A model generated the notes under the pieces. It was not told where the DNA came from. It was given only the letters and a program-made list of their open reading frames with translations, and did no database searches. Source: Persicimonas caeni (GTDB lineage: Bacteria; Myxococcota_A; Bradymonadia; Bradymonadales; Bradymonadaceae). From it: DNA of 64,000 nucleotides. Of the stretch, positions 38,680 to 48,351 are shown piece after piece (within the stretch, counting starts at the first letter, position 1; each line of letters begins with the position of its first letter). The stretch covers positions 6,537,074 to 6,601,073 of the forward strand of contig NZ_CP041186.1 of NCBI RefSeq assembly GCF_006517175.1. Direction: 5' to 3'. Made by a program: the position numbers and the translations under genes.

Positions 38680-41358
38680 TTACGGGCTGAGCGTATCGTA
38701 GATGATCACGACGCGCTCGCCGGCGACCCCGTTTGCCGGGTCTTCGAGCTGCGGGCGAGCCGGGCCGAAGAAGGCGACGCTGTTGGTCTCGGGGAAGTAG
38801 TCCCAGCCGTCGGTGCGGCTTCGGCTGACGGCCTGTCCACCCACGTACACTCGAAGCGAGGAGGCGATGGGCGAGCTCGGCAGCGTGTAGTTCGTCGCCC
38901 GCGCCGCGGCCAGGTCGAGCATGTGGTCCAAGATCGGCTCGAGGCTCTGGCACAGCGAGCCGTAGGCGCCTTGGATGGAGGCGGCCAACTGACGGTAGGA
39001 GGCGGCGTCGTAGTTGCCGCAGCTCTGACCGTCACCGACCAGCGAGACCGGGATGGTCTTGCCGCCGAAGTAGGAGACGAAGTCGCTCATGAGCTGGCTG
39101 CCGGTCGGGCTGGTGAGCGGGTCGTTCTGGAAGGTCTGAGCCTCCTCGTCGCTCAAGTAGATCGAGATGACCTCGGCGCCGGTTCGGATGGGCGTCGCCG
39201 ACTGGCTTCCCAGCATGTCGGTCAGCCCCTCTTTGGTCACCTTCAACCCGAATTCTTCGTAGCGGTTGCCCGTCCAGTTGACCACCTGTTGCACTTCGGC
39301 CTCGAAGTTGGTCTGCGAGCGGTGCCAGCCGCTGGAGTTGAGCAGCTGGCCGTTCTGGGCGTCGTCCATGGCGGTCACGCCCATGCGCCAGTCGAAGCCC
39401 ATCGTGGGCAGCCGCGAGAAGAAGCCGGCGTAGACGTTTTGGAGGCGCGAGTAGTCGTCGGACATCGAGCCCGACTGGTCGAGCACCCAGTAGAACTCGA
39501 CCGGGGCGCGGCCGGTGAAGGTGCCGAACGTCTCGCAGTGGTTGGTCGGGGTGGCCGACGCGGCGGTGAGCGCCGTGGTGTCGACCGCGTTTTTGGCGAG
39601 GGCGCGCAGCCCGGGGTTGGCGCCCAGGGTGGTCGCCTCGGTGACGGTGGCCAAGACGATCGCGCCCTGGGTGCGCTGGACGACGGTCAGATCGACGCGG
39701 AACTCGGTGCCGCTGGGTCCGTTGGGCGTCGGCAGGTTGGCGACGTCGGTGGCCACGAAGGGGCCCATTTCGGCGAGCAGCGTGTCTCGCAGTTGACCGG
39801 TCGTCATGGCGCTGGCGGTCTGGAGCATGTAGTGGCCGCGCGCGGCCAAGAACCCGTCGTGGGTGGTGAACTCTCCGAGCGACCAGTCTTGGGCGAGCGT
39901 GCCGTGGTTGGTGAGGCGCTGGCGACGCAGCTGCAACATTTCGTTGGCGTCGGCGCCGAGAGCTGCGGTGTCGGCGACCACGAAGCCGAGCACCTCGGAG
40001 TTGGCGTCGCCGAAGGCCGCAGCGCCCAGCGAGCTGCCGGAGGTGTCGTTCAATTCGACGAATTGGGTGTAGTCGACGTCGAGGGCGAGCGCCCAGTTGC
40101 CCGCGCTGCTCGATTGGGTCTGGTAGGCGCCGGTGATGGTGCCGCTGTTGTTCGTGCACTGGGTGACGAACCAGCGGTTGGCGTCTTGGACGCCGTCGTT
40201 GTAGGTCGACGCCTGGGTCGGGTCGAGGCCGTAGGCGACCTCCTCGGCGTCGTCGAGGCCGTCGCCGTCGGTGTCGGCCAGCAGCGGGTCGGAGGAGTGG
40301 ACCACGACCTCGTCATAATCGTTGAGCCCGTCGCCATCGGAGTCGGCCACGCTCGGGTCGGTGCCGGCCTGGGCCTCCTCGCCGTCGAGCAGGCCGTCGC
40401 CATCGCCGTCGGCGACCAGCGGGTCGGTGCCCGCGGCGATTTCGTCGGCGTCGGTGGCGAAGTCGTTGTCGGTGTCTTCGGAGAGCGGGTCGGTGCCGTG
40501 AGTGTTGACCTCGGCGCCATCTTCGAGGGTGTCCCCATCGGTGTCGACGGCCGCCGGGTTGGTGCCGTGAGTGTTGACCTCGGCCGCGTCGTCGAGGCCA
40601 TCACCGTCGGTGTCGGTCATGGTGGGATCGCTGGCGTGCGAGTTGATCTCGCTGCGATCGTCGAGGCCGTCGCCGTCGGTGTCGGTCATGGTGGGGTCGG
40701 AGCCGTGGTCGTTGACCTCGGCGCCGTCGTCGAGGCCGTCGCCGTCGGTGTCGGTCTGCAGCGGGTCGGAGCCGTAGGTGTCGACCTCGTCACCGTCGCT
40801 GACACCATCTTGATCGGTGTCGGCTTCGAACGGGTCGGTGTCGTGGACGTTCAACTCGTCGCCGTCGGAGAGGCCGTCGCCGTCCGAGTCGGGATCGAGC
40901 GGGTCGGTGCCCTCTCGAAAGATCTCGGTGTGGTCGTCGAGGCCATCGCCATCGGTGTCGGCCGCATTGGGGTCGGTCCCGCGGGCCACTTCGTCGCAAT
41001 CGTTGATGCGGTCGCCGTCGGAGTCGGCGGCGGGGTCACACTGCGGGTCATCGGAGGTGTCCGAGCCGGCGTCTTGCTGGCCGGTATCTTGCTGCCCAGT
41101 GTCCTGCTGGCCCGTATCTTCTTGCTGCCCTGCATCTTGTTGGCCGCCCGAATCCGTCTGATCGGTGTCTTCGCCACCGGCGTCCGGATTGTCGTTGTTG
41201 GGCGCCTCGAGGAACTCACAGGAGCCTTCGACGCAGATGCGGTCGAGCTTGCAGTCCGAGTCCTTGACGCAACCCTCCTCCGAGTTGTCCGACGTGCACG
41301 CGGCCGCCATTGGGACGACCAAAAGAAATATCGCTAATACGCTCTTCCACGTAGCCAT
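38680..41358 (-). CDS. lipoprotein with thrombospondin type-3 repeats and a VWA-like domain
   Basis: 892 aa from the ATG at 41358, which has GGAGG 8 nt upstream. The TTG at 41373 overlaps that box and is rejected. A lipoprotein signal ends AAAC, followed by a small Cys-rich segment and Gln/Asp/Thr-rich repeats (GQQDTGQQD). About ten Ca-binding TSP3-type repeats follow ([20 protein letters not shown]), around residues 125-375. A VWA-like domain follows with a MIDAS-type DQSGSMS near residue 620 and an [10 protein letters not shown] stretch. The Ca2+-rigidified stalk with an adhesion domain suggests a surface adhesin or sensor (inference). Confidence 0.88.
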
Positions 41359-41479
41359 GAGTACAACCTCCAAAAAATTACATGTATCCGCTGGAGGTCA
41401 CTGTAGCATGTGCAAGGTTGGAATCGAACGGTGGTGCGTGACATTTATGCAACCGGCTCGCAGACGCCGAGGCGCGCGC

Positions 41480-42134: not shown

Positions 42135-42202
42135 TACGTGCTCATTGCGCCGCTCAAAAATTTTTGGGCTGCGCGAGCATCGAAGAGAGAGACGTAGGAC
42201 TT

Positions 42203-42811
42203 ATGTCTGCATTTCAGATTGAATTGCACGAGCTCGAGAACGGCGCCGTCGAAAAGGCGTTCCGACCGAGCCGCGAACAACTCGAGGAGCTCTTTGCCGG
42301 AGTGGAGGACGATTTTCGTATCCTCGACGCCGAAGGGTTCGCGGCCGATGTGCGCGCACAGATGGCCGACTCGACGGTCCACGTCTCCGGCCACGTCGAA
42401 GGCGGCTTCGTCTACGATTGTGGGCGTTGCCTCAGCGAGCGTCAGTTCCAGGTCGACACCGACGTCGATTTCGTCTTGATGTCTGAGAGCGAGTGGTCTA
42501 ACGCCTACGCTGGCGAAGAGGAAATCGCGCTGCGCGAAGACGAATTGGACGTCAGCTACTACGAGGGCGAGACGCTCGACCTCGGCCAGTTGATTCGCGA
42601 AGCGGTGTTGCTCGAGCTTCCGCCGTTTCCGAATTGTCCGGACACCTTGCGCGAAGAGTGCGATACCCTCTATGAAGAGCGCATCGGCGAAGAGACCGTC
42701 GAAGAGCTCGAAGAGCAGAAGGTCGATCTTCGGTGGGGCCCGCTCAAGAACCTGAAAGTCACCGACAGTGGCAAGGTCAAGCAGGTCGACGACAAGAAGA
42801 ATAAAGATTGA
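42203..42811 (+). CDS. YceD/DUF177 family protein
   Basis: 202 aa. AGGA lies 5 nt before the ATG at 42203. This conserved family is almost always directly upstream of rpmF, as here. In some bacteria and chloroplasts members are needed for 23S rRNA accumulation. The domain has the Cys pair C73-G-R-C76 in YDCGRCLSERQF, a putative metal-binding or structural pair, and a Glu-rich C-terminus ending in a Lys tail. It is separated from rpmF by 69 bp, so co-transcription is likely. Confidence 0.88.
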   Translation: MSAFQIELHELENGAVEKAFRPSREQLEELFAGVEDDFRILDAEGFAADVRAQMADSTVHVSGHVEGGFVYDCGRCLSERQFQVDTDVDFVLMSESEWSNAYAGEEEIALREDELDVSYYEGETLDLGQLIREAVLLELPPFPNCPDTLREECDTLYEERIGEETVEELEEQKVDLRWGPLKNLKVTDSGKVKQVDDKKNKD

Positions 42812-42880: not shown

Positions 42881-43066
42881 ATGGCAGTCCCGAAAAAACG
42901 CAAGTCGCAGGCCAAAACGCGTTCGCGCCGTTCGGCCAACATGAAGATGAAGGCGCCGCGCTACCAGCGCTGCCCCGAGTGCTTCGCCCCCAAGCGCACC
43001 CACCGCGTCTGCGGCGAGTGTGGCTACTACAACGGCGAGCAGATCATCGAGGTCTGGGAGTACTGA
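42881..43066 (+). CDS. rpmF: 50S ribosomal protein L32
   Basis: 61 aa, complete, with the N-terminal MAVPKKRKSQ motif and four zinc-type cysteines (C31, C34, C44, C47) in CPEC and CGEC. An AGGAG box precedes the ATG. In most bacteria rpmF is followed by plsX-fabH and other fatty acid genes. Here the next gene, 10 bp downstream, is an ACP-RpiB fusion instead. Confidence 0.97.
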   Translation: MAVPKKRKSQAKTRSRRSANMKMKAPRYQRCPECFAPKRTHRVCGECGYYNGEQIIEVWEY

Positions 43067-43076
43067 GCTTTAAGCC

Positions 43077-43796
43077 ATGTCCACCGAGTCCAAAGTCATC
43101 CAGGTGGTCGCTCAAACGCTGGAATTGTCGCAAGACGAGGTCAGCACGAGCGACCGCTTCATCGAGGATCTCGGGGCGAACAGTCTCGATATCGTGAACT
43201 TGATCTGGCGTATCGAGGAAGCGTTTTCGCTCCCCGAGACGCCGGAGTCCGTGCTCGAGGAGATCGAGACGGTCGGGGATCTGGTCGGGCTGGTCGCCAA
43301 GACCCGCTCCGACGAGGCCTTTGAGGCTTCGGAGGTCGCCGATCTGGTGATCGCTTCCGACCACGCCGGCGTCGAGTTCAAGGCGATGCTGGCCGATTGG
43401 TTGCGCGAGCAGGGCAAGACGGTCGTCGACCTGGGGCCCGCCGAGGCCCAGTCGGTCGACTATCCCGATTTTGCCGAGCTGCTCGCCAACAAGGTCGCCG
43501 GCGGCCACGCCGACAAGGGCATCCTCATCTGCGGCTCGGGCATTGGCATGTCCATCGCGGCCAACAAAGTGCCCGACGTGCGCGCCGCCCTGGTCACCGA
43601 CCCGCTGATGGCGTCGCTGTCCCGGCAGCACAACAACGCCAATGTGCTGTGCCTCGGCGCGCGCATCATCGGCGAGGAGTTGGCCAAAGCCTGCGTCGAC
43701 GCGTTTCTGACGACGGATTTCGATCCCGGCGATGACGGCCGGCATCAACGTCGCGTCGGTCGCATCGCAGAGATTGCCCGTCAGTCCTGCAAGTAG
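43077..43796 (+). CDS. acyl carrier protein domain fused to ribose-5-phosphate isomerase B
   Basis: 239 aa, one uninterrupted frame. Residues about 1-78 read as an acyl carrier protein: helical, acidic, with DLGANSLDIV placing a phosphopantetheine-accepting Ser at 36 (Asn where Asp is usual). Residues about 88-239 read as RpiB, with the Asp-His of ASDHAGVEFK (95-96), ICGSGIGMSIAANK with the catalytic-type Cys152, SRQHNNANV with His185, and a GRHQRRV tail. RpiB interconverts ribose 5-phosphate and ribulose 5-phosphate. The ACP part may be a relic of the usual rpmF-fab-acpP neighbourhood or may still be functional. A linker of about 10 acidic residues joins the two. Confidence 0.88.
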   Translation: MSTESKVIQVVAQTLELSQDEVSTSDRFIEDLGANSLDIVNLIWRIEEAFSLPETPESVLEEIETVGDLVGLVAKTRSDEAFEASEVADLVIASDHAGVEFKAMLADWLREQGKTVVDLGPAEAQSVDYPDFAELLANKVAGGHADKGILICGSGIGMSIAANKVPDVRAALVTDPLMASLSRQHNNANVLCLGARIIGEELAKACVDAFLTTDFDPGDDGRHQRRVGRIAEIARQSCK

Positions 43797-43852: not shown

Positions 43853-44398
43853 ATGCGTTGCCCGTTCTGCGGCCACCTCGAGGATAAGGTTGTCGACTCT
43901 CGCGTCTCCAAGGAGGGCGAGAAGATTCGGCGCCGCCGCGAGTGCCAGGCGTGTGAGCGTCGCTACACGACCTACGAACGGGTCGAAGAGGCGTTCCCCC
44001 AGATCGTCAAGAGCGACGGGGCTCGCGAAGAGTACGACCGCGCCAAGTTGCGCCACGGTATTCAGATCGCCTGCATCAAGCGCCCCATCTCCATCGAACA
44101 GATCGACCAGGTCGTCGACGCGGTCGAAAAGCGCATGCTCGACCAGTCGAGCCGCGAGGTCTCCAGCGACTGGATCGGCTCGACGGTCACCGCCGAGCTT
44201 CGAGATCTCGACCCCATCGCCTACATCCGATTTGCCAGCGTCTACCGCGCCTTTAGCGACATCCAGGCGTTTCTCGAGGAGCTTCGCGGCCTCGACGAAA
44301 ACCCCGGTGGCGAATCGACGCCGACTCACGGTCGACAACCCCGCCCCGACAGTGGTAGCACCGTCGCCAATGAGTCCGCCGAACCCGCGGCCGACTAG
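43853..44398 (+). CDS. nrdR: transcriptional repressor NrdR
   Basis: 181 aa. N-terminal zinc ribbon with C3-x-x-C6 and C31-x-x-C34, Arg-rich EKIRRRRECQACERRYTTYERVE, then an ATP-cone domain (about 50-140). NrdR represses ribonucleotide reductase operons in response to ATP/dATP. It is about 30 residues longer than typical, with a Pro/Ser/Glu-rich tail after about residue 145. The nrdR-ribD linkage is widespread in bacteria. It is followed by ribD after 9 bp. Confidence 0.95.
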   Translation: MRCPFCGHLEDKVVDSRVSKEGEKIRRRRECQACERRYTTYERVEEAFPQIVKSDGAREEYDRAKLRHGIQIACIKRPISIEQIDQVVDAVEKRMLDQSSREVSSDWIGSTVTAELRDLDPIAYIRFASVYRAFSDIQAFLEELRGLDENPGGESTPTHGRQPRPDSGSTVANESAEPAAD

Positions 44399-44407
44399 AG
44401 GATAACG

Positions 44408-45592
44408 ATGAGCTCCGAGTCGCACGCCAACCGCCACGAGCGCCTCATGGCCGAGGCGATTGCCGAGGCGAAGAAGGCCGAGGGTCGTACCCGGCCCAAT
44501 CCGCTTGTGGGTTGTGTGATCGTGCGAGACGGCGAGGTCGTCGCGCGCGGCTACCACGCCCGCGCCGGCGAAGCCCACGGCGAAGTCGCCGCGCTGCGCG
44601 CGCTCGACGGCTCCGCCGAAGGCTGCGAGGCCTACGTCAACCTCGAGCCGTGCTGCCACCACGGGCGCACGCCTCCCTGCACCGAAGCGCTGATCAACGC
44701 GGGCATCCGCCGCGTCTATGTCGGCACGCTCGACCCGTTTCCCGAGGTCAGCGGCAAGGGTATCGAGGCGCTTCGCCGCGCCGGGGTCGAGGTCGTCTCC
44801 GGCGTGCTCGAAGACGAGAGCCGACGGCTCAATCAGCCCTATTTCAAGCGCATCACCACCGGACTTCCGTGGGTCGCCGTCAAATACGCGATGACCCTCG
44901 ACGGCAAGATCGCCAGCAGCACGGGCGACTCGGCCTGGATTTCGAGTGAGGCGTCGCGACGACGCGTGCACGAGCTTCGCAACGTCCACGATGCGATCAT
45001 GGTCGGCACCGGCACGTTGTTGCACGACAACCCGCGGTTGACCTGTCGCATCGACGGCGGGCGCGACCCGGTGCGAGTAGTCCTCGACGCGACGCTGTCG
45101 GCCCCGCTCGACGCCAACGTCTTCGACCCGGCGCTCTCGGACGCGCGCACCATCGCCGTCGTCGGCCCACACGCCCCCGACGAGCGCCGACGCGCGCTCG
45201 CCGAGCGCGGCGTGACCTTTTTGGAGGTGGCCGTCGACGCCGCCGGCAAGCTCGACCTTCGCCAGGTGCTGCGAGGCCTCGCCGACCGCGAGTTGCCCAG
45301 CGTCTTCGTCGAGGGCGGCAGCCAACTGCTCGGCAGCCTGTTCGACCAAAAGCTCGTCGACCGCGTCTACGCGTTTGTCAGCCCCAAAGTCGTCGGTGGT
45401 CAAAACGCGCCGTCGGCGGTCGCAGGCGAGGGCGTCGAGGCGATGAAAGATGCGTTGGAACTCGAGCGCCTCTCCATCGAGGTGGTCGACGGGCGCGACG
45501 TGTTCATCACCGGCGACGTGCCGGCGAGCTTTCGCGCTGATATCGAGACGACCCCGGCGGCAAGCCGCCCGGTGACCGCCGAGGAGGCATAA
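44408..45592 (+). CDS. ribD: bifunctional riboflavin deaminase/reductase
   Basis: 394 aa. The N-terminal deaminase has His in HGEVAAL and the zinc cysteines in NLEPCCHHGRTPPCTEAL. The C-terminal reductase has GLPWVAVKYAMTLDGKIA and a later VFVEGGSQL. It carries out the second and third steps of riboflavin synthesis. Starts 9 bp after nrdR and ends 4 bp before ribE, so it is an operon member. No FMN riboswitch was seen upstream. Confidence 0.96.
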   Translation: MSSESHANRHERLMAEAIAEAKKAEGRTRPNPLVGCVIVRDGEVVARGYHARAGEAHGEVAALRALDGSAEGCEAYVNLEPCCHHGRTPPCTEALINAGIRRVYVGTLDPFPEVSGKGIEALRRAGVEVVSGVLEDESRRLNQPYFKRITTGLPWVAVKYAMTLDGKIASSTGDSAWISSEASRRRVHELRNVHDAIMVGTGTLLHDNPRLTCRIDGGRDPVRVVLDATLSAPLDANVFDPALSDARTIAVVGPHAPDERRRALAERGVTFLEVAVDAAGKLDLRQVLRGLADRELPSVFVEGGSQLLGSLFDQKLVDRVYAFVSPKVVGGQNAPSAVAGEGVEAMKDALELERLSIEVVDGRDVFITGDVPASFRADIETTPAASRPVTAEEA

Positions 45593-45596
45593 GACG

Positions 45597-46229
45597 ATGT
45601 TTACTGGACTCGTAGCGGACCTCGGCACCATCAAGGCGATTCGCCAGACCGGCGAGAACTGGACGCTGACCGTGCGCACCGCGTTCGATATGGCCAGCGT
45701 CGAGATGGGCGAGAGCATCGCCGTCAACGGCGCGTGCCTTACGGTCACGCAGATGGGCGACGACACGTTTAGTGTGGAGGCGAGCCCGGAGACGCTGCGG
45801 CGAACGACGTTGGGCGACCGCAAGGTGGGCGACAAGGTGCACTTGGAGCGCGCGCTGCGCATGGGCGACAGACTCGGCGGGCATATGGTGCTCGGCCACG
45901 TCGACGGCGTCGGCAAGCTCGTGGCTAAGCGCCGCGAGAAGAACGCCTGGCTGCTCGATTTCGACGCGCCCGAGCAGGTCGCACGCTACCTCATCGAGAA
46001 GGGATCGGTGGCCATCGACGGCGTGAGCCTGACGGTCAACACGGTCGATGCCAATCGCTTCGGTGTGGCGATCATCCCGCACACCTCCGAGCACACGAAT
46101 CTGACCGATTACGCGGTCGGGCGACGGGTCAACCTGGAGTCCGACGTCATCGGAAAATATGTCGAGAAGTTTGTCAGCCCGAAAGGCGAAGGCATCAGTC
46201 GTAAGATGCTCGAGGACTTTGGGTTTTAG
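45597..46229 (+). CDS. ribE: riboflavin synthase, alpha subunit
   Basis: 210 aa. Two tandem lumazine-binding halves start at MFTGLV and at about residue 98 (LGHVDGVGKL). It dismutates two lumazines to riboflavin plus a pyrimidine product. Visible are NGACLTV in the first half and DGVSLTVN in the second, matching duplicate substrate sites. Located between ribD and the RibBA-like gene with short spacers (4 and 18 bp). Confidence 0.95.
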   Translation: MFTGLVADLGTIKAIRQTGENWTLTVRTAFDMASVEMGESIAVNGACLTVTQMGDDTFSVEASPETLRRTTLGDRKVGDKVHLERALRMGDRLGGHMVLGHVDGVGKLVAKRREKNAWLLDFDAPEQVARYLIEKGSVAIDGVSLTVNTVDANRFGVAIIPHTSEHTNLTDYAVGRRVNLESDVIGKYVEKFVSPKGEGISRKMLEDFGF

Positions 46230-46247
46230 TATTCGAGGGCATGAGCC

Positions 46248-47405
46248 ATGAAACAAGAAGCACTCCAGCGAGTCGAACGGGCCGTCGAGGCCTTCCGCGC
46301 CGGCGAATTGGTCATCTTGGTCGATGACGAAGACCGGGAAAACGAAGGCGATCTGTGCATGGCCGCCGAGAAGGTGACGCCCGAGGCGATCAACTTCATG
46401 GCCACCCACGGGCGCGGCCTTATCTGCCTGACGATGACCGGCAAACGGCTCGACGAGCTCGAGATCCCGATGATGGTCGAAGGGCGCTCGAACGACAGCC
46501 AGTTCGGCACCGCGTTCACCGTGAGCATCGAGGCCCGCGAGGGCATCTCGACGGGCATCTCGGCGGCCGACCGCGCGCGCACCGTGCAGGTGGCCGTGGC
46601 CGACGACGCCAAGCCGACCGACCTGGTCACCCCCGGCCACGTCTTCCCGCTGCGCGCTCGCGAGGGCGGGGTGCTCGTGCGCACCGGCCAGACCGAAGGC
46701 AGCGTCGACCTGGCCCGACTCGCCGGGCTCAAGCCGGCGGGCGTGATCTGCGAGATCATGAACCCGGACGGGACCATGGCGCGCATGCCCGATCTGGAGA
46801 AATTCGCCGAAGAGCACAAGGTGCCCATCGTCACGGTCGCCGACATCATCGACTACCGACTGCGCCGCGAGAGCCTGGTCGAGGTGGTCGCCGAGGCCGA
46901 GCTTCCCACGGACTACCCGGGCGAGTGGCGGGTCAAGGTGATGCGCAGCCTGCTCGACCGGTCCGAGCACTTCGCGTTCGTGTGCGGTGAGCCGACTCCC
47001 GAGGAGCCGACGCTGGTGCGCGTGCAGCACCGCTGCGACACCCTCGACATCTTCCTCGAGGAGCGCAGCGCCTGCCTCGACAAGTTGTCGGGCTCGATGA
47101 AGCGCATCGCCGAAGAGGGCAAGGGCGTCATCGTCTACTTGGACAAAGAGGGCCACAGCGCGCTCGACCTGATGCGTCGCCACGGTCTGCTCAGCCACGA
47201 CCCGCACGCCGAACAGGACGAGGACGACGTCAACCAGCCCGAGCAACTGTTGAAAGAGGTCGGCATCGGCGCCCAGATTCTGGCGGCGGTCGGCGTCGGG
47301 CAGATGCGGGTTTTGACGAATCGTCCCAAAAAGATTATCGGGCTCGACGGCTACGGCCTCGAGGTGGTCGACCAGGTGCCGATTCACCCCGACGCGGCCG
47401 AATAA
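46248..47405 (+). CDS. 3,4-dihydroxy-2-butanone-4-phosphate synthase with degenerate GTP cyclohydrolase II half (RibBX type)
   Basis: 385 aa. The N-terminal RibB half is intact, with DDEDRENEGDL, THGRGLICL and later HVFPLRAREGGVL. The C-terminal half is RibA-like but damaged. Aligning the zinc region by eye (HRCDTLDIFLEERSACLDKL) keeps the first Cys, replaces the second Cys by Ser and keeps the third. The EEGRGI-type motif is EEGKGVIVYL, and the catalytic D-x-R-D region is replaced by VNQPEQLL. RibBX proteins of this kind, with RibB activity and an inactive or altered RibA domain, are known. GTP cyclohydrolase II must then be encoded elsewhere. Operon member between ribE and ribH. Confidence 0.87.
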   Translation: MKQEALQRVERAVEAFRAGELVILVDDEDRENEGDLCMAAEKVTPEAINFMATHGRGLICLTMTGKRLDELEIPMMVEGRSNDSQFGTAFTVSIEAREGISTGISAADRARTVQVAVADDAKPTDLVTPGHVFPLRAREGGVLVRTGQTEGSVDLARLAGLKPAGVICEIMNPDGTMARMPDLEKFAEEHKVPIVTVADIIDYRLRRESLVEVVAEAELPTDYPGEWRVKVMRSLLDRSEHFAFVCGEPTPEEPTLVRVQHRCDTLDIFLEERSACLDKLSGSMKRIAEEGKGVIVYLDKEGHSALDLMRRHGLLSHDPHAEQDEDDVNQPEQLLKEVGIGAQILAAVGVGQMRVLTNRPKKIIGLDGYGLEVVDQVPIHPDAAE

Positions 47406-47443
47406 GCCCCTTTGGCGTTACAAATTTTTGAATGGAGTACGAC

Positions 47444-47920
47444 ATGCCGAATTACGTGGAAGGCAAACTGACCGCCGAGGGCAAGAAATTCGCCATCGTG
47501 GCGGCGCGCTGGAATGACATCTTCTCGGAGAAGCTCGTCGGCGGCGCCTGCGATACGCTGGTGCGCCACGGGGTCGACGACAACGATATCACCGTGTTTC
47601 GCTGCCCGGGGAGCTTCGAGCTGCCGCAGGTGGCCGCGCGTGTGGCCGAGTCGGGCGACTTCGACGGGATCATCTGTCTGGGCGTGCTGATCCGCGGCGC
47701 GACCCCGCACTTCGACTATATCGCCGCCGAGGCGACCAAGGGCATCGGGTCGGTCGGCCAGGACTACGCGCTGCCGGTGGCCTACGGGGTCATCACCTGC
47801 GACACCCTGGAACAAGCGATCGAGCGCAGCGGCTCGAAAGCGGGCAACAAAGGCGCCGAAGCGGCGCTGGCTGCCATCGAGATGGCCAATCTCTTCGCCG
47901 AAATGGAAGCTTCTGCATGA
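47444..47920 (+). CDS. ribH: 6,7-dimethyl-8-ribityllumazine synthase
   Basis: 158 aa, start at 47444 with GGAG 6 nt upstream. Condenses the RibD and RibB products to lumazine, probably as a capsid-like or pentameric assembly. Visible are VAARWND, FRCPGSFELP and CLGVLIRGATPHFDYIA, with His and catalytic residues. The stop codon overlaps the nusB start (ATGA). Confidence 0.95.
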   Translation: MPNYVEGKLTAEGKKFAIVAARWNDIFSEKLVGGACDTLVRHGVDDNDITVFRCPGSFELPQVAARVAESGDFDGIICLGVLIRGATPHFDYIAAEATKGIGSVGQDYALPVAYGVITCDTLEQAIERSGSKAGNKGAEAALAAIEMANLFAEMEASA

Positions 47921-48351
47921 GCGTTCAACAAAAGAAAGCGCGTGAAGCCGCCCTGTGGGCGCTTTACGGCATGGACGTCACCGGCCAATTGGTGCCGAAG
48001 GCGGCCGAAGGATTCTACCCGATCTCCAGTGACCTGGACGACGAGCTCACCGAGGTGTGGCACGACGTCGAGGCGCGCGTGCACGGGGTGGTCGAGGAGT
48101 TGCCGCGCATCGACGACGAGGTCCAGCGGGTCAGCCCGCGCTGGCGTCTCGAGCGCATGGCTGTCATCGACCGCAATATCCTGCGCCTGGGCGCCTGGGA
48201 GCTGTTCAACCGACAGACGCCCGCCATTGTCGTCATCAACGCGTGTGTCGAGCTTGCCAAGGAGTACGGCGAGCAGAATACTCCCGGCTTTGTCAACGGG
48301 CTGCTGGACCAAATATGCAAGGACCACGGCATTCAAATCTCGTCCGAGTGA
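47917..48351 (+). CDS. nusB: transcription antitermination protein NusB
   Basis: 144 aa, all-helical, with REAALWALYGMD at the start, then RMAVIDRNILRLGAWEL and NACVELAKEYGEQNTPGFVNG, typical of the family. NusB with NusE forms the boxA-binding complex in rRNA antitermination. The ribH-nusB linkage is common in bacteria. The start overlaps the ribH stop by 4 bp, and its own stop overlaps the GTG of the next gene, so all three should be co-translated. Confidence 0.95.
   Translation: MSVQQKKAREAALWALYGMDVTGQLVPKAAEGFYPISSDLDDELTEVWHDVEARVHGVVEELPRIDDEVQRVSPRWRLERMAVIDRNILRLGAWELFNRQTPAIVVINACVELAKEYGEQNTPGFVNGLLDQICKDHGIQISSE

Follow-up and report, generated by a model that had tools for sequence, protein, structure and literature searches.

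A conserved fusion of acyl carrier protein and ribose-5-phosphate isomerase B in Persicimonas caeni and 22 relatives, with a likely origin in operon collapse

The closest described systems are the acyl carrier protein (ACP) of type II fatty-acid synthesis, AcpP (TIGR00517), and ribose-5-phosphate isomerase B, RpiB (PF02502/TIGR01120). RpiB is an oligomer in known structures, and phosphopantetheinyl transferases of the Sfp type accept varied carriers. With B. subtilis AcpS, contact to Asp35/Asp38 helps position Ser36 (PMC3447402). In Bradymonabacteria, FabB/F and FabI have been reported missing, and almost all members except strain FA350 have been described as being without key steps of ribose-5-phosphate synthesis, in a text that does not name the missing enzymes of that route (PMC7460792). 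The papers searched contained no description of ACP fused to RpiB, in line with the first-pass annotation of this DNA, which knew of no precedent.

The fused gene lies within a 64,000-nucleotide stretch of the Persicimonas caeni genome (the window), where the relevant features are as follows.

42164..42811, + strand: yceD, upstream of rpmF; open reading frame, conserved neighbour
42881..43066, + strand: rpmF, directly upstream of the fused gene; open reading frame, conserved neighbour
43077..43796, + strand: ACP-RpiB fused gene, 239 aa; open frame with a counterpart in 22 other genomes
43077..43310, + strand: ACP domain, residues 1-78; PF00550, ACP fold
43182..43184, + strand: Ser36 codon AGT, predicted phosphopantetheine site, after Asn35; Ser invariant in 23 genomes
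43311..43343, + strand: linker, residues 79-89; pLDDT <50 at 80-85, fastest-evolving portion
43329..43337, + strand: TCGGAGGTC within the linker, possibly what is left of the former rpiB ribosome-binding site; compare TAAGAGGTCCCGATG at the acpP/rpiB border of genome G138; no conserved start codon behind it in relatives
43344..43793, + strand: RpiB domain, residues 90-239; PF02502, TIGR01120 above cut-off, aligned along its length with solved RpiB 3he8, 1o1x and 1nn4
43530-43532, + strand: Cys152 codon TGC, in the RpiB half
43853..44398, + strand: nrdR, downstream of the fused gene; open reading frame, conserved neighbour
44408..48351, + strand: ribD-ribE-ribBA-ribH-nusB, downstream block fixing synteny; open reading frames, order conserved

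The frame starts 10 bases past rpmF and runs unbroken from the ATG at 43077 to a TAG ending at 43796. Residues 6-73 match PP-binding (PF00550) with 41.7 bits against a Pfam gathering score of 20.8, and residues 91-230 match LacAB_rpiB (PF02502) with 188.9 bits against a Pfam cut-off of 24.7. At the equivalog level, the fused protein lies above the cut-off for RpiB (TIGR01120, 165.1 versus 138.65 bits) and below that for AcpP (TIGR00517, 63.4 versus 70.45 bits), a model on which a control AcpP from genome G038 scores 114.1 bits. An AlphaFold2 model built with 23 related sequences has two confident domains (mean pLDDT 87.8, pTM 0.64) joined by a flexible linker; by Foldseek, the ACP part resembles E. 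coli ACP 3eje (TMt 0.90) and the RpiB part solved RpiB 3he8 (TMt 0.94). Pfam domains and the full-length frame agree with the first-pass claim of a single open frame joining ACP to a complete RpiB, and the residues named there (Ser36, Asn35, Cys152, His185 and Arg222-His223) are all in place. An internal translation start at the TCGGAGGTC-like linker site, releasing free RpiB, was considered and rejected as a general mechanism: several relatives have no ATG, GTG or TTG near the RpiB start, so that no separate RpiB would arise there by internal initiation. Elsewhere in the window (38680-41373, − strand), an 897-aa frame carries many D-x-D-x-D-G repeats of calcium-binding type and a C-terminal von Willebrand-like part, as judged by eye from the translation.

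The search of related genomes proposed in the first-pass annotation returned the full-length fusion in 22 more. Within the class (57 genomes in the collection), the family of Persicimonas caeni (f1, Bradymonadales) has the fusion in 17 of 20 decidable genomes, Persicimonas caeni included; three have RpiB without ACP, and one more of the 21 is undecidable because its contig begins at the RpiB domain. All five genomes of the order's second family (f2) and the single genome of f6 carry it; it is absent from f3, f4, f5 and f7. No further fused frame was found among 331 genomes of the phylum at E 1e-42. When GTDB contigs were scanned with the fusion, most matches were plain RpiB; the one additional fused copy was that of Lujinxingia vulgaris (L036, identical to G018), a result that leaves room for fusions elsewhere. 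In all 23 fusion genomes the order yceD-rpmF-[ACP-RpiB]-nrdR-ribD is conserved. An artificial join of two genes in assembly or sequencing, which the first-pass annotation had wanted to exclude, has nothing in its favour except the oddity of the fusion. The identical join is shared by 23 separately sequenced genomes of at least 17 genera, with the frame conserved and the linker variable, and because the full-length frame recurs in 22 further genomes, chance and mis-assembly are excluded; we therefore reject an explanation whose probability is negligible. The ACP-RpiB gene is genuine and ancient, and 23 genomes have kept it.

ACP-like extensions before RpiB in two f5 genomes (G042, G046) and in a verrucomicrobial metagenome-assembled genome (L065) were rejected, since they proved to be a different fusion or the termini of other genes. 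The L065 case (L065:5174-7348) is a single 724-aa frame of low-molecular-weight protein phosphatase, RpiB and serine hydroxymethyltransferase (GlyA). It resembles ACP-RpiB in joining RpiB to the product of a neighbour, but its partner domains are unrelated and include no ACP.

The origin of the gene can be read from a synteny series of 30-odd loci. In f3 and f7 the interval is rpmF-plsX-(fabH)-acpP-fabF-rpiB-nrdR, with about 1.3 kb from acpP to rpiB and fabF between them. Fusion carriers (f1, f2, f6) have rpmF-[ACP-RpiB]-(nrdR)-ribD, and f4 and Bradymonas sediminis have rpmF-rpiB-nrdR. The AcpP cluster context is lost in all fused cases examined, since fabF, fabH and plsX are missing from the locus; of the genes between rpmF and rpiB, only acpP remains in Persicimonas caeni and its 22 relatives, in frame into rpiB. 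Compared with the Persicimonas caeni ACP, cluster AcpPs average 36% identity and the other single carriers tried reach 26% and 22%; the AcpPs of the rpmF-plsX-acpP-fabF cluster are the nearest relatives of the fused ACP. A genome of another class of the phylum (G138) has rpmF-acpP-TAA-rpiB, with plsX and fabF gone and acpP adjoining rpiB unfused (pair L169, G138:C36:33806-34483); the border reads TAA GAG GTC CCG ATG. This is an independent, unfused form of the step that must precede fusion.

We put at about two in three the probability that ACP-RpiB is a two-function protein formed by operon collapse, a working isomerase and a phosphopantetheine carrier joined without any needed metabolic meaning. 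The ancestral rpmF-plsX-(fabH)-acpP-fabF-rpiB-nrdR has lost everything between rpmF and rpiB except acpP, which now reads in frame into rpiB, and the linker would allow the two halves to work apart. Counting against this account are the missing Asp of the DSL motif and the score of the ACP half below the NCBI AcpP cut-off, as well as the genomes without the fusion: Bradymonas sediminis has lost the ACP half at the same locus and retained RpiB, and in two genomes of genus g4 the only RpiB is unfused and lies elsewhere. The fusion is thus dispensable under some conditions.

In a phylogeny of the rib genes downstream, the carriers group together (UFboot 61) and Bradymonas sediminis is sister to Persicimonas caeni (100), a position that marks its plain RpiB as secondary, the ACP half having been lost. 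The f6 genome (G031) joins the other carriers in that tree (UFboot 61) and f3/f5/f7 in the RpiB tree (86); on a single origin including f6, the trees disagree. Two f3 genomes, L136 (G029) and G051, are without RpiB and have RpiA, and at the same locus acpP-fabF leads directly into nrdR, an isomerase-type swap within the class.

The first-pass annotation suggested that the ACP part may be a leftover of the plsX-fabH-...-acpP cluster after a deletion. Synteny across the class supports this as an origin, but not as a description of what the domain is now, given its invariant Ser, its purifying selection and its retention where the RpiB half decays; the fused product is conserved, not debris. Ser36 is present in 23 of 23 fused proteins, with AGY codons in the first family and TCN codons in the second, and Asp31, Glu47 and Glu54 are likewise invariant. 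The ACP half is under purifying selection: in close pairs its dN lies well below dS, for example 0.018-0.043 against 0.15-0.22 within one genus. Like AcpP, the fused domain has the ACP fold, Ser36 and a place after rpmF. It differs in being fused, in its score on the AcpP model, in the loss of the fabF neighbour, and in two stretches of sequence. Before Ser36 stands Asn (4), Thr (11) or Ser (8) and in no fused protein Asp, which the cluster AcpPs have in 18 of 18 examined. In helix II most fused proteins have W-R-I-E (Trp44 in 20 of 23, Arg45 in 21 of 23), where cluster AcpPs have M-A-M-E.

These differences bear on whether the ACP half could be an unmodified relic, serving RpiB as a mere N-terminal extension for solubility or stability. 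The absence of Asp before Ser36, the AcpP score below cut-off, the loss of the half in Bradymonas sediminis and the reported lack of type II elongation genes (PMC7460792) would fit such a relic, yet we consider it very unlikely: the four invariant residues and a dN/dS well below 1 argue against it, the Asp35 contact is a feature of AcpS (PMC3447402) while Sfp-type transferases are present, and in three genomes with a dead RpiB half the ACP half diverges less than its partner (between species, pN 0.19-0.31 versus 0.31-0.41).

The RpiB half of Persicimonas caeni retains the catalytic and phosphate-binding residues Asp95, His96, Cys152, His185, Arg222, His223 and Arg226, in register with solved RpiB 3he8, 1o1x and 1nn4, and also has Ser154; active-site residues are kept in 20 of 23 fused proteins. 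RpiA (PF06026) was not found in any f1 genome, which leaves the fusion as the sole recognised ribose-5-phosphate isomerase of Persicimonas caeni and probably the cell's working one. The likeness to RpiB thus extends to a full domain, catalytic residues, an equivalog-level score and the operon place of relatives' rpiB; the fusion differs in its N-terminal ACP domain and in the loss of the active site in three relatives. These belong to f2, where RpiA is present in four of five genomes. Three of the four (G022, G023, G025) have Cys152 replaced by Gly and show further active-site losses, His185 to Arg among them; Leishmania RpiB is inactive once its equivalent Cys or His is lost (PMC4783025). RpiA presence and loss of the RpiB active site are associated (Fisher p 0.002, kinship ignored), and the three RpiB halves score 124.4, 96.1 and 115.3 bits, respectively, all below the TIGR01120 cut-off. 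Loss of the catalytic Cys in these RpiA-bearing relatives, with the ACP half intact, suggests that each half is retained for a reason of its own.

The same three genomes bear on a rival account, a functional coupling in which the fusion was selected as such. RpiB would be an oligomeric platform, non-catalytic in some species, holding several re-specialised ACPs with a new docking helix; or acyl loading would tune the isomerase, a sensor tying pentose-phosphate flux to lipid synthesis. The dead RpiB half is still attached and in frame in G022, G023 and G025, and a fold is predicted for it (mean pLDDT 89.8 in the model of G023); the fusion has been long retained in 23 genomes, and the clade signature Trp44/Arg45 points to a changed docking partner. 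However, the model does not place the two domains confidently relative to each other (pTM 0.64, flexible linker), Bradymonas sediminis shed the ACP half and kept RpiB, and the dead RpiB may be a slowly decaying domain that cannot easily be removed without damage to the ACP. We consider coupling of either kind unlikely, although it would account for the continued attachment of a dead RpiB half.

If, as we favour, the product is an isomerase and a carrier in one chain, the ACP half would be loaded with phosphopantetheine. In the Persicimonas caeni genome AcpS gave no match over cut-off except inside a megasynthase; the phosphopantetheinyl transferases are one of Sfp type at G000:C1:4908066 and one built into that megasynthase. 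The first-pass concern that Asn35 makes modification by AcpS uncertain is reasonable where AcpS is concerned but does not settle the matter, since none of the 23 fused proteins has Asp at this position and the transferases here are Sfp-type and megasynthase-embedded. Loading would presumably fall to the Sfp-type transferase.

Once loaded, the ACP half may carry the few remaining acyl-ACP reactions rather than type II elongation or lipid A synthesis. Should the reported absence of FabB/F and FabI hold (PMC7460792), the fused carrier would be unable to take part in the usual elongation cycle. Lipid A is an unlikely reason for ACP retention in f1, as LpxC is absent from all its genomes (G000-G020); it is mostly present in f3, f7 and f6. 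Canonical lipid A may thus be missing in these Gram-negative predators. The best candidate client is PlsX in phospholipid synthesis, found in 13 of 17 f1 fusion carriers and in none of the three f1 genomes without the ACP half (p 0.03, kinship ignored). As sole client it is insufficient, because four f1 carriers gave no PlsX match.

Two other sets of carrier genes occur in Persicimonas caeni. A megasynthase of 3,082-3,096 aa (G000:C1:729800-739100; L128, 4825-14073, + strand) comprises KS, AT, two ACP, KR, DH and a built-in phosphopantetheinyl transferase, and similar large KS and transferase frames occur across f1, Bradymonas sediminis included. It could have taken over from the lost type II fatty-acid synthesis, and the literature may have overlooked it. 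At G000:C1:6415100-6420600 (L131), two tandem single ACPs stand directly behind genes resembling AMP-ligase and branched-chain keto-acid dehydrogenase E1-alpha, E1-beta and E2. They may prime iso-fatty acids; iso-C17:0, at 54.8%, is reported for Persicimonas caeni.

One locus thus displays the ordinary cluster, its fused descendant, a fused form whose enzyme half is dead and a form from which the carrier has gone again. Together with the independent, unfused collapse in another class, it is a clear record of how a new protein can arise when a fatty-acid gene cluster is lost. The fusion may also explain why a ribose-5-phosphate step was scored missing in almost all Bradymonabacteria: FA350, the exception, is the cultured Bradymonas sediminis strain with a stand-alone RpiB at the locus, and in its relatives RpiB is present, hidden behind the ACP domain. 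If the fusion caused that score, one supposed dependence of these predators on their prey would be an annotation error.
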